Shown here: positions 22,666 to 26,797 of the stretch, one piece after another
How the letters are laid out: every line of letters starts with the position of its first letter
Position numbering within the stretch: position 1 is the first letter of the stretch
Notes under the pieces: generated by a model
Database searches by the model: none
Told to the model about the DNA's origin: nothing
What the model saw: the letters and a program-made list of their open reading frames with translations, nothing else
Program-made: the position numbers and the translations under genes
Assembly (NCBI RefSeq): GCF_012516435.1
Contig: NZ_CP051216.1
Coordinates: 1,552,001-1,616,000 of the forward strand
Reading direction: 5' to 3'
Origin: Pseudodesulfovibrio sp. zrk46
GTDB taxonomy: Bacteria; Desulfobacterota; Desulfovibrionia; Desulfovibrionales; Desulfovibrionaceae
DNA length: 64,000 bases

Positions 22666-22761
22666 GTAGGCATATATACTGAAAATGGTGGGGTTGTGCT
22701 ACCTGCTTGAGGATTTTCTTTTACTGGCGGCGAGTAGGCGGGGTGTGATATGAGGAATGTT

Positions 22762-23910
22762 ATGAAATGCGCTCCTTTCAGATCTTTCATGTGTGTTCGT
22801 GCCACGCTCGTGGCGGGAGTGTTTTTCGTATTTATGGCGTACTTTGCTGTCTCGTCCGCATGGGCATCAGACAGGATGTCCGCGACTTTCCTGAATCCCG
22901 GTGGAAAGGATGATGAGTTCTTCAGCATGATGACCTCCTTCATGCAGGCGGCAGCCGATGATCTCGGCGTGGAATTGGAAGTAGTCTATTGCGACCGCAA
23001 TCATCTCAAGATGCGTGATGAAGGTTTGCGCCTGTTGAATCGCCCTGATCCTCCCGAGCATCTCATTCTGATCAATGAAAAGGATGCAGGGGGTGAACTG
23101 CTTCGGCTTGCCGCAGACAAGGGGGTGCATGTCGCCCTGATCAATGAAGGTTTGAACGGAGAGTATGGTGATGCCTTCGGTGGACCGGGAGAGATACTGT
23201 CCAATTGGATTCTTGAGTATCTTCCTGACGACCGACAGGCCGGCTATCTGCTGGGCAAGGCTCTCATTCAGGCTGCAAGGAACAGGGGAAGCGGGCTGCC
23301 AAGTGCCGGTGTGTCCGTGGTTGCCATCAGTGGGAATTACAGAACCGGGTCTTCGGCCCAGCGTGTAATGGGTTTGCGTCAGGCCGTGGAAGAAGAGGGA
23401 CGGGTCCATCTGCTGCAGGTGGTTCCTGCCTACTGGGAAGAAGCCCACGCCGAAAAGGTCGTGAACGGTGTCATGCAGCGGTATCCCGGCACGTCCGTGA
23501 TTTGGGCGGCAAGTGACGTGATGGCGCGCGGTGCGCAAACGGCGCTGGCTCGACTCCCCGGCGGTTGGGGGTCAAAGCCTGTGCTGGGCGGAATCGACTG
23601 GGCGAAGTTTGCCCTTTATGAAGTCAAGGCGGGGCGTTTTGCCGCCACCGTGGGCGGTCATTTCATGGATGGTGGATGGGCGCTGGTGATGCTGTATGAT
23701 TTGTATCACGGGATTGCGCTTGAACAGCGGCGCATGCAGTCCAAGTTTTCATTGATCACGCCGGATAATGTGGAAGAATATTTGGAGCGGTTCGGAACGC
23801 AGGACTGGAGCACCATTGATTTCACCCGTTTTTCCAAGAAATACAATCCCGGCATGAAGCAATATGACTTTGGTCTGGAAGCCGTGTTGCGGCAGTTGCG
23901 TGGGGAGTAG
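22762..23910 (+). CDS. periplasmic sugar-type binding protein (LacI/ribose-binding fold), copy 1
   Basis: The 382-residue product has a signal peptide ending in SSAWA before SDRMSATFLNPGG. It matches Peripla_BP_4-type periplasmic binding proteins, which are related to ribose-binding protein and LuxP. Elements visible are FLNPGGKDDEFFSMM, INEKDAGGELLRLAADKGVHVALINEG, ISGNYRTGSSAQRVMGLRQAV and WAASDVMARGA. No ABC permease or ATPase is present. I chose the ATG at 22762 because GAGGA lies 5 bases before it; the ATG at 22750 is the alternative. The next gene, 3 bases downstream, is a paralogue with the same order of motifs, so the pair arose by tandem duplication. The ligand is unknown. Confidence 0.85.
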   Translation: MKCAPFRSFMCVRATLVAGVFFVFMAYFAVSSAWASDRMSATFLNPGGKDDEFFSMMTSFMQAAADDLGVELEVVYCDRNHLKMRDEGLRLLNRPDPPEHLILINEKDAGGELLRLAADKGVHVALINEGLNGEYGDAFGGPGEILSNWILEYLPDDRQAGYLLGKALIQAARNRGSGLPSAGVSVVAISGNYRTGSSAQRVMGLRQAVEEEGRVHLLQVVPAYWEEAHAEKVVNGVMQRYPGTSVIWAASDVMARGAQTALARLPGGWGSKPVLGGIDWAKFALYEVKAGRFAATVGGHFMDGGWALVMLYDLYHGIALEQRRMQSKFSLITPDNVEEYLERFGTQDWSTIDFTRFSKKYNPGMKQYDFGLEAVLRQLRGE

Positions 23911-23913
23911 TAT

Positions 23914-25014
23914 ATGCCAAAGTTTATTCTGGGGTGGCTTGTATGCCTTGTCTGTTTGTTGCCGGTAGTTTCCTCGGCACAGGAAAAGCCGTTGGTTTAC
24001 TTTGCTAACCCCGGCTATCAGGATGATTCCTTTTTTGGCCTCATGACCGATTTCATGCTGGCCGCAGCAGATGACCTCGGCTTTGAGCTCAAGGTTTTCT
24101 ATGGTGAGCGCAACCATGTGCTTATTGATGAGAATATCCGCACTATTTACAAGGGCGACAGGCGACCGGATTACGTCATCGGCATGGATGCTCGTGGCTC
24201 TGGAGCGGTCATGCTCGCCATGGGCGAAGAGCAGGGGATCAAGACGATTTTCGTCAATCAGAGTTTTCTGCACAAAGAGCGGACCCGTATGGGGATGCCG
24301 GGGCAAAACTACAAGAACTGGCTTTTCGAGTACCTCCCAGATGACGTTCATGCTGGATACATATTGGGGAAAAAACTCATTCAATCGGCAGTTGATCGGA
24401 AACTTTTCGATAATGATGGAAGTGTTGTGATTGCTGCTATTAGTGGTCACGACCAATCTGCTGCTTCAATCCTGCGGATGCAGGGGGTACGCAAAGCCGT
24501 GGCCGAGTTTCCGCAGGCGAGACTGGTTCAGTCGGTCTCGGCAGGATGGCGTCGGGACAAGGCGCATAATCTCGCTTTACGACTCATGGACCGCTATCCT
24601 GAACTGTCGGTGTGCTGGGCGGCCAGTGACCTCATTGCCATGGGGGCAGTGGACGCCATGGGAGAGCGGGGAAAAGTGCCGGGCAAAGACATCATTGTCG
24701 GCGGCGTGGATTGGTCGAACGTCGCGCTTCCCTTGATTCGTGACGGCCGATTGGCCGGTTCTGCGGGTGGTCACTTTATGGATGGCGGTTTTGCACTGGT
24801 CATGTTGTATGATCTTATCCACGGCGTGGCTGTGTCACCCCTTAGCCGTTCCCGTTTTTCGTTGCTGACACGGGAAAACGTGGATGATTACATCAATCAC
24901 TTCGGCACCAACGACTGGGGGCAGATAGACTTCCGAAAGTTCTCTAAGGTGTTGAATCCAGAGGTGAAAGAATACGATTTCTCCCTTAAAGCAGTACTTG
25001 AACAAGTGCGTTAG
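23914..25014 (+). CDS. periplasmic sugar-type binding protein (LacI/ribose-binding fold), copy 2
   Basis: A 366-residue paralogue of the preceding gene, starting 3 bases after it and surely in the same transcript. It has a signal peptide ending in VSSAQ before EKPLVYFANPG. Shared features include FxNPGxxDDxFF, AAADDLGxEL, ISGHDQSAASILRMQGVRKAV, CWAASDLIAMGA, GHFMDGG and an FGTxDWxxIDFxxFSK C-terminal block. The two differ most in the ligand-contact loops, so they may recognise different solutes or act as a pair of sensors. Local base composition near 24360-24470 is more AT-rich than the rest, which could reflect mosaic origin. Confidence 0.85.
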   Translation: MPKFILGWLVCLVCLLPVVSSAQEKPLVYFANPGYQDDSFFGLMTDFMLAAADDLGFELKVFYGERNHVLIDENIRTIYKGDRRPDYVIGMDARGSGAVMLAMGEEQGIKTIFVNQSFLHKERTRMGMPGQNYKNWLFEYLPDDVHAGYILGKKLIQSAVDRKLFDNDGSVVIAAISGHDQSAASILRMQGVRKAVAEFPQARLVQSVSAGWRRDKAHNLALRLMDRYPELSVCWAASDLIAMGAVDAMGERGKVPGKDIIVGGVDWSNVALPLIRDGRLAGSAGGHFMDGGFALVMLYDLIHGVAVSPLSRSRFSLLTRENVDDYINHFGTNDWGQIDFRKFSKVLNPEVKEYDFSLKAVLEQVR

Positions 25015-25037
25015 TCCTTTTATTATTTGATAAAGAG

Positions 25038-25107
25038 GCCTCCTCGATGCTTCACGCGTGGTGCGTGCGCTGGTATAAATACGTATTGGCAACGAAAACG
25101 AGGAGGC
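25038..25107 (+). promoter_or_regulatory. inverted repeat that can mask the ribosome site of the selenoprotein-type gene; promoter inside
   Basis: GCCTCCTCG (25038-25046) is the exact reverse complement of CGAGGAGGC (25099-25107), which contains the AGGAGG ribosome site; weaker pairs extend it to about 12 bp. Between the arms TTCACG (25051-25056) and TATAAA (25074-25079), 17 bases apart, form a plausible promoter. A transcript from that promoter would lack the left arm and leave the ribosome site free. A read-through transcript from the binding-protein genes would have it masked. Confidence 0.45.
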
Positions 25108-25110
25108 TTT

Positions 25111-25713
25111 ATGCCGATCAAGATCAAGATTTTTTCGGATTTCGTTTGACCGTTTTGCTATGTCGGCACGGGTATTGTCGACAAGCTCAAGAAGGACTAT
25201 GACATCGAGGACACTTGGGTGCCTCAGGAGATCCATCCGGAAACTCCGCCGGAGGGGCGTCCTTTGAGTGACTTGTTCACGTATTTTGACATCCAGCAGC
25301 TGACCTCTGAATGCCGTCGCCGTGGTGAGCCCTACGGTCTCCACTTTGGCGACATAGTCAATCTGAGCAACACGCGCCTCTCTCTGGAGGCTGCGGAGTT
25401 CGCCCGGAGTCAGGGGCGGTATCACGAGTTTCACCATAAGGTGTTTGAGGCGTATTATTCCCATGGTCGAGACATCGGCGACATGGAAGTGCTGCGTGAT
25501 GTGGCTCAAGATGCCGGGCTGGATCCGGATGCCATGGAAGCCGCTTTAAAGGAAGGGAGTTACCGGAAGGCGGTCAGTATGGGGTGTCTCGAAGCAAGGG
25601 ATTCAGGCGTCACCGCCATTCCCGCTTTTTTCATCGAGGACATGCCCATGATTACTGGCGCCATCCCCGAAGACCGCTTTCGTGAGATCTTGGATTCCCT
25701 TGTAGAAGAGTAA
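25111..25713 (+). CDS. DsbA/FrnE-family thioredoxin-fold oxidoreductase with in-frame UGA (probable selenoprotein)
   Basis: From the ATG at 25111 (perfect AGGAGG site) the frame reads through one TGA at 25147-25149 (codon 13) to the TAA at 25711. The 200-residue product matches the FrnE-like branch of DsbA. It begins IKIFSDFV-U-PFCYVG; the family normally has C-P-W-C-Y at this spot, so the UGA replaces exactly the first active-site Cys. The rest is intact: EIHPETPPEGRPL, EFARSQGRYHEFHHKVFEAYY, SVTAIPAFFIED with the cis-Pro, and ITGAIPEDRF. A SECIS-like hairpin follows. The likely role is a cytoplasmic thiol/selenol disulfide exchange. The alternative, a nonsense mutation with restart at 25219, would destroy the active site and is less likely. 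Confidence 0.85.
25157..25186 (+). promoter_or_regulatory. bacterial SECIS-like hairpin
   Basis: Eight bases after the UGA, the stem GCT-(bulged A)-TGTCGGCA pairs with TGTCGACAAGC. This gives 11 bp with one G-U pair, around the 7-base loop CGGGUAU. Size, distance from the UGA, a bulge in the stem and G residues at the loop apex agree with bacterial SECIS elements read by SelB. It lies within the coding sequence, as bacterial SECIS elements do. Confidence 0.7.
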
Positions 25714-25792: not shown

Positions 25793-26797
25793 ATGCATAG
25801 TGCTGAGAATTTTAAAGAAATAGTAGTATTCTTCACTGGTGGAACCATAGGAATGTCTCCTGCCGAAGGAGTGCACGGCGTGGCTCCAGGTGGTAACTTC
25901 GAGAAGTTGCTGAACCAGCTCGCTCCGCAGGAAGACGGCATCCGTCTGCGACCTGTGGAGTGGTGTGACAAGCCCAGTCCGCACATGACACCTGCCGACA
26001 TGTTTCGACTGGCAAGAGAGATTCAGGGAGTGCTGGCCGAGCCGCAGGTGCTCGGTGCGGTGGTGCTCCACGGCACCGACGTACTGGCCGAGTCCGCATA
26101 CATGTGTGACCTCGTCATCGACTCGGACAAGCCCGTGGTGCTCACCGGCAGCATGCGCTACTACTCCGAGTCCGGCTACGATGGCATCCGCAATCTCATC
26201 AACGCGGTCCGCGCCGTGTTGCTACCCATTCCTCCCGGCACCGGAGCATGCGTTCTCATGACCGACCGCATCTTCACCGCCCGTGAAGCGGTCAAGGTCA
26301 ACTCGCTCAACGTCGACGCCTTTGAATCTCGCGAGGCAGGCATCGTCGGGTACGTTGCTGGTGAGTCCGTCATCCTTGCCGGGTGCCCTCTGCACCATTC
26401 CCCGCGCCGCAAATTGTCTCCTGAGTCCATCGAGCTCAACGTGCCGCTCATTACGTCATATACGGGAATGGACCGATCGGCTATCGATCATGCAAGAAGC
26501 ATTGGCAGTAAAGGAATTGTCATAGAAGGATTCGGCGCAGGCAACGTGCCTCCCGGTGTCGTCCCCGGACTGGTGGACTGCATGGAATCCGGTATTCCGG
26601 TGGTTCTCGCCACCCGCTGTATCGAGGGTGGTGTCTGGCCCATTTACGGTTACGAAGGCGGCGGTGCCGATCTGCAGGATCGCGGTGCGATTCTCTGCGG
26701 AAGGCTCGGCGGCCCCAAGGCGCGCATCCGGTTGATGTGTGCCCTCGGTCTTACCTCGAACCCGGACGAGATTCGGGACATGTTCGAAGACGCGTAA
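25793..26797 (+). CDS. ansA: L-asparaginase, type I-like
   Basis: Asparaginase hydrolyses L-asparagine to aspartate and ammonia. The 334-residue product has the two family signatures: FFTGGTIGM with the nucleophilic Thr, and VLHGTDVLAESAY with the catalytic Thr-Asp-Lys triad region. It also has the GSMRYYSESGYDGIRNL loop. There is no signal peptide, consistent with a cytoplasmic type I enzyme. The ATG is preceded by an A-rich stretch but no clear ribosome site. It is monocistronic, with its own terminator. Type I versus type II assignment rests on the missing export signal and length. Confidence 0.9.
   Translation: MHSAENFKEIVVFFTGGTIGMSPAEGVHGVAPGGNFEKLLNQLAPQEDGIRLRPVEWCDKPSPHMTPADMFRLAREIQGVLAEPQVLGAVVLHGTDVLAESAYMCDLVIDSDKPVVLTGSMRYYSESGYDGIRNLINAVRAVLLPIPPGTGACVLMTDRIFTAREAVKVNSLNVDAFESREAGIVGYVAGESVILAGCPLHHSPRRKLSPESIELNVPLITSYTGMDRSAIDHARSIGSKGIVIEGFGAGNVPPGVVPGLVDCMESGIPVVLATRCIEGGVWPIYGYEGGGADLQDRGAILCGRLGGPKARIRLMCALGLTSNPDEIRDMFEDA

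Follow-up and report, generated by a model that had tools for sequence, protein, structure and literature searches.

The gene at 25111-25713 of Pseudodesulfovibrio sp. zrk46 very likely encodes a FrnE-type thiol oxidoreductase of the DsbA fold, in which selenocysteine (Sec) would act as the nucleophile of a U13-P-F-C16 motif and would be inserted at a UGA codon directed by a SECIS hairpin. Positions are those of the window, i.e., the whole 64,000-nucleotide stretch of DNA that was analyzed. The first-pass annotation had likewise read this gene as a selenocysteine FrnE/DsbA oxidoreductase, and this reading is supported. It had also named three observations that would speak against it, namely the absence of selB or selC from the genome, a read error at 25147, and frameshifts or stops elsewhere in close relatives, and none of the three was made. 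The coordinates of the gene, its coding and RNA features, and its conserved neighbor are listed in Table 1.

Table 1. Features of the candidate selenoprotein gene and its neighbor in the window
Feature	Position	Strand	Basis
FrnE/DsbA-like coding sequence, UGA read as selenocysteine (predicted)	25111..25713	+	200 codons; PF01323, FrnE match
Shine-Dalgarno AGGAGG	25101..25106	+	sequence
Predicted selenocysteine UGA codon, residue 13	25147..25149	+	TGA in 24/33 genus/family loci, Cys codon in 9
TGC codon, predicted resolving cysteine, residue 16 of U-P-F-C	25156..25158	+	invariant, 20 aligned homologues
Codon of invariant Pro171, likely cis-proline opposite active site	25621..25623	+	invariant, 20 aligned homologues
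Bacterial SECIS-type hairpin	25157..25186	+	fold, covariation, synonymous-codon conservation
Conserved core stem and loop	25163-25168 with 25176-25181; loop 25169-25175	+	part of SECIS-type hairpin
Asparaginase gene, conserved neighbor	25793..26797	+	PF00710 167.7 bits, PF17763 107.6 bits

Structure of the gene

The frame begins with the ATG at 25111, with AGGAGG ending four bases 5' of it, and is closed after 200 codons by the TAA at 25711-25713. It is open throughout except for the TGA at codon 13, which is the first residue of U-P-F-C. An in-frame TGA at the position of the family's first redox Cys, in an otherwise intact gene with a ribosome site, was therefore confirmed as it had been described in the first-pass annotation. 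The expectation that gene callers would lose the active site also proved correct, although the start is not the predicted 25219: the protein listed for the window, P0002, has 169 amino acids, begins at codon 32 (25204), and lacks the active site. The listed proteins of several relatives, such as P0025 and P0027, are shortened similarly.

In the region 5' of the gene, positions 25035-25110 can form a strong leader hairpin that is closed at its base by 12 pairs, with the Shine-Dalgarno sequence inside (energies, −33.0 and −34.7 kcal/mol; z values, −3.6 and −3.1). Because no equivalent was apparent by eye in the relatives, this hairpin was set aside as a part of the system; it might regulate translation in the zrk46 genome only.

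Protein family and fold

The protein, with C in place of U, matched PF01323 with 102.5 bits (cut-off, 25.6), and none of the NCBIfam models (release 20.0) was passed by it at the cut-off of the model. The top match among solved structures was FrnE (5cnw/5cp1; E 6.6e-19), a Deinococcus protein; the alignment spans residues 3-185 and includes the CPxC motif, and the next different protein matched with an E value of 5.6e-8. In the 20 aligned homologues, residue 13 (TGA read as C), Pro14, Cys16, and Pro171 are invariant, as are Ser9 and Asp10. The structure model based on these homologues had a mean pLDDT of 95.0. In this model, residue 13 lies between a strand at 3-9 and a helix at 14-29, as in the DsbA arrangement, and a strand (172-175) follows Pro171, presumably the cis-proline of the thioredoxin fold. 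With a C/UxxC motif, a conserved proline before a strand, and FrnE as the closest solved relative, the protein is by sequence a member of the DsbA family and of its FrnE branch, the group of COG2761. Membership in NF041057 was rejected, since the match covered residues 83-196 only and its 49.5 bits fell short of the cut-off of 190. In the contig profile search, no relative was obtained with the single protein as the query, and 80 relatives, each with at most 40% identity, were obtained with the alignment as the query. No signal sequence was seen in the protein by eye, which suggests that it is probably cytoplasmic.

Sec could also be inserted into a protein that is not an oxidoreductase, for example an enzyme of the same fold resembling a kappa-GST or a chromene isomerase. 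PF01323 spans several activities, and 2-hydroxychromene-2-carboxylate isomerase appeared as a weak match (E 0.0011) and among the homologues (P0092). Isomerases of the DsbA-type fold, however, usually have no CxxC, and the homologues P0092 and P0093 show SSP and no CxxC, whereas C16 of the UxxC motif is invariant in the aligned homologues and FrnE is the best match. This alternative is thus unlikely, and the protein is regarded below as a thiol oxidoreductase.

Codon at the active site in relatives

Homologues were sought in a family sample of 199 genomes, in 36 genomes of the genus, and in a phylum sample of 395 genomes. In the family sample, a homologue with E ≤1e-20 was found in 20 genomes; 17 of these have one TGA and 3 have no stop. 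Among the genomes of the genus, 25 carry a homologue, 18 with one TGA and 7 without. The family and genus searches overlap and together provided 33 loci, in all of which the codon of residue 13 was read: it was TGA in 24 and TGC or TGT in 9. The alignment of homologues that had been proposed as a check therefore gave Cys or TGA at codon 13 throughout. No other in-frame stop was present within the matched range of the 33 loci. A read error at 25147 is very unlikely, because this codon is also TGA in 23 of the 32 other loci. In the phylum sample, 78 genomes have a homologue, 65 with one in-frame TGA (window included) and 13 with none. Codon readings covered 30 of the 77 phylum homologues other than that of the window (29 fetched loci and the locus of genome G409). 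Of these 30, 25 have TGA at the active site (24 fetched loci and G409) and 5 have Cys. Cys was the sole alternative residue in the 14 sense-codon loci read.

These results bear on whether the TGA is a true stop, which would make the gene a pseudogene or leave a shorter protein with a downstream start and no active site. The start of P0002 at codon 32 and the similarly shortened P0025 and P0027 are compatible with such a stop, but it is extremely improbable in view of the recurrence of TGA at one codon with no further stop in the matched range, the invariance of Ser9, Asp10, Pro14, and Cys16 around it, the ribosome site 5' of the upstream ATG, and the constraint on codons and base pairs directly 3' of the TGA that is described below.

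A separate observation concerns the database homologues, 9 of 92 of which have Trp at the Sec site (P0034, P0046, P0047, P0049, P0051, P0052, P0053, P0057, and P0059). These are perhaps gene calls in which UGA was taken as Trp.

Hairpin downstream of the TGA

Folding of the region after the TGA, as the first-pass annotation had proposed, gave the hairpin that it had described: a SECIS-type structure of 11 pairs with one bulged A, a 7-base loop (CGGGUAU) containing G, and an energy of −13.2 kcal/mol. The spacing had to be corrected, since the gap between the TGA and the hairpin is seven bases rather than eight, and the distance from the TGA to the loop is 19. The bacterial SECIS model, as outlined in PMC13188914, has a loop of 3-9 nt with G at loop position 1 or 2, an upper stem of 4-16 bp, a UGA-to-loop distance of 16-37 nt, and an energy of −7.5 kcal/mol or lower. 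The hairpin agrees with this model in its 7-nt loop with G second, 8-bp stem above the bulge, 19-nt distance, and energy. The energy itself is weak evidence, because its z value was −1.5 and 20 of 200 shuffles of the 47-base stretch folded equally stably. No Rfam family reached its gathering score in a scan of the window.

The comparative evidence for the hairpin, drawn from covariation and codon conservation, is strong. In a covariation alignment of 48 Sec loci (46 distinct rows), gap-free around the TGA, the six-pair core stem was formed in 96.0% of 276 cells, and the control structures slid along the alignment were paired in 20-48% of cells. Two-sided changes were found in 19 cells compared with 2.8 expected by shuffling (0 of 500 shuffles as high), and they affected four of the six pairs compared with 1.8 expected (5 of 500 as high). 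The number of further pair types did not exceed that of the shuffles (9 compared with 7.7; 89 of 500 as high). The structure slid by +3 equals the real one in two measures (four pairs with two-sided changes; nine further types), whereas its covariation score was lower, at 0.164 compared with 0.255 for the real structure.

Codon usage and the distribution of the stem gave further indications. Among 23 Sec genes, the fraction of same-residue pairs that use the same codon was maximal at codons 17-23, where it reached 0.80, the highest value among 194 windows, compared with a mean of 0.44 over the gene. In the nine Cys genes, the peak lay elsewhere, at codon 59. All six core pairs are present in 24 of 24 Sec loci of the genus and family, in contrast to 2 of 9 Cys loci. 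At 26 further phylum loci, all six pairs were found in register in 13 of 21 Sec loci and in none of the 5 Cys loci. Many of the distant UPWC members retain the stem with different letters, such as L154 and L162, and three and four of the six pairs are in register in L153 and L156, respectively. At codon 23, GTC (Val) is used by all 24 Sec genes of the genus and family but by 3 of the 9 Cys genes; among the further phylum loci the codon varies, with GTC in 11 of the 21 Sec genes. The SECIS may thus constrain the protein sequence as well.

Selenocysteine machinery

The zrk46 genome (4.08 Mb, one contig) contains selA, selB, selC, and selD. The match to selB was 391.9 bits (cut-off, 242.25), those to selA (613.8 bits) and selD (325 bits) were also above their cut-offs, and tRNA-Sec was found with 81.8 bits and reported by ARAGORN as tRNA-SeC with the anticodon tca. 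The absence of selB and selC, which would have argued against Sec, was therefore not observed. The selD match has one in-frame TGA. A search for the SECIS of SelD gave three frames, and the TGA followed by GCCGCCAAGATC is presumably the Sec codon of SelD, judging from the motif.

In the family sample, 18 of the 19 carriers of a homologue besides the window have selB, and the exception, G077 (89% complete), has selA and tRNA-Sec. All 13 further carriers in the genus have selB. In the phylum sample, selB was found in 61 of 65 TGA carriers compared with 10 of 13 Cys carriers (lists compared by eye); almost all genomes of the sample (353 of 395) have selB, so this co-occurrence says little. The TGA carriers without selB number four, and three of them (assemblies 76-85% complete) have selA and tRNA-Sec. 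The Cys carriers without selB are G251, G431, and G472, none of which has a selA match. No tRNA-Sec match was obtained in G251 (150 of 217 candidates scored) or G472 (150 of 634), and the match in G431 was 50.1 bits.

G409, listed as 100% complete, carries a UPWC gene (L163, 1092) that has the active-site TGA and in which the core stem is intact. In this genome, the searches for selB (E 1e-60; 3 candidates scored) and for tRNA-Sec (E 1e-8; 150 of 473 scored) were negative, and the selA match was 18.7 bits, below the cut-off. G409 may represent a mis-binned contig, an assembly loss or gap, or a true exception. Together with the Trp at the site in 9 of 92 database homologues, this genome is the evidence that could favor decoding of UGA as Trp or Cys, or plain read-through, without Sec. 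Such decoding is very improbable when set against the complete sel machinery of the zrk46 genome, the covarying hairpin at the SECIS position, and Cys as the sole other residue in the sense-codon loci read. Insertion of Sec at codon 13 in the cell is accordingly the reading adopted here, as a very probable one.

Exchange of Sec and Cys at the locus

For a tree of the 33 loci, the active-site codon and the codons of the hairpin were masked. The tree contains six Sec/Cys changes, at least five of which are forced by well-supported branches. The Cys genes L026 and L031 are sisters of Sec genes and retain the stem, a pattern suggestive of a recent change from Sec to Cys. A sign test for the association of the hairpin with Sec over independent switches gave three for, none against, and two ties (p 0.25, not significant).

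An asparaginase match (tblastn) was found in the flank of 23 of the 24 other genus loci, comprising 16 of the 17 Sec loci and all 7 Cys loci. The switches within the genus therefore concern orthologues at one place. The asparaginase gene is probably outside the function of the oxidoreductase. On the other side, just upstream (22750-25014), lie two tandem genes with periplasmic binding-protein domains (PF13407; 386 and 366 amino acids), neither of which matched anything in the short flanking sequences at the other 32 genus and family loci.

It is likely that the FrnE-like family is mostly of the Sec type across the phylum, has undergone at least five Sec/Cys switches, and within the genus stays in one place beside the asparaginase gene. 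If this is true, the locus would allow the costs and benefits of Sec and Cys to be measured in orthologues. For the question of what makes selenium worth retaining in a redox enzyme of an anaerobe, closely related orthologues that have Sec or Cys at a single residue of a single locus are well suited.

Proposed function

In the mechanism that we propose, SelB with Sec-tRNA(Sec) would bind the hairpin a few bases 3' of UGA codon 13, and Sec would be placed at this codon by the ribosome without termination. The proposed catalytic cycle would involve attack by the Sec selenolate, probably on disulfides or other oxidized thiol substrates, and resolution of the mixed selenide-sulfide by C16, with Pro171 presenting the substrate. 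Our best guess for the role of the enzyme is the repair of disulfides after exposure of the anaerobe to oxygen.

The listed proteins of zrk46 and several relatives start after the active site, so that the distribution and chemistry of the family are probably under-reported. The present assignment is still useful in this respect, as the family is mostly of the TGA type in the phylum, no NCBIfam model was passed, and the listed protein is without the active site.

Comparison with known selenoproteins

Among the literature searched, no title dealt with selenocysteine in Pseudodesulfovibrio and no selenoprotein title dealt with bacterial FrnE, as judged by title, and nothing was found for selenoprotein combined with dithiol-disulfide isomerase. 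The statement in the first-pass annotation that Sec is little described in the FrnE-like branch did not hold, since PMC1088965 and PMC1914089 show that DsbA-like UxxC selenoproteins were predicted in 2005-2007. The former (2005, Sargasso Sea) reports nine DsbA-like sequences of COG2761 with UxxC, and the latter (2007) describes DsbA-like genes with TGA, with Dde_1263 and its upstream part in Desulfovibrio desulfuricans as an example. A DsbA-like selenoprotein of D. desulfuricans is also listed in PMC1794560, and a 2026 review (PMC13188914) includes DsbA-like form 1 (PF01323, UxxC). The kind of protein, a DsbA-like UxxC selenoprotein, is thus already known, and the zrk46 gene adds a member to it.

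FrnE, represented by 5cnw, 5cp1, and other structures, is the best solved relative and differs in having Cys where the zrk46 protein would have Sec. The NF041057 family (Rcas_1661 family thioredoxin-like (seleno)lipoprotein), which PMC13188914 lists as DsbG-like, is also a UxxC thioredoxin-like family, but the similarity is partial and the zrk46 protein lies below its cut-off. The COG2761 selenoproteins, as described in PMC1088965 and PMC13188914, share with the zrk46 protein the DsbA-like family, the UxxC motif, and a SECIS downstream of the UGA; they comprise nine sequences from marine metagenomes plus a single accession, and the likeness is one of description. Dde_1263, as described in PMC1914089, is a further parallel: both are TGA-containing DsbA-like genes of a sulfate reducer whose annotated frame is without the upstream part, and, judged from the published description, Dde_1263 and the zrk46 gene are likely orthologous.
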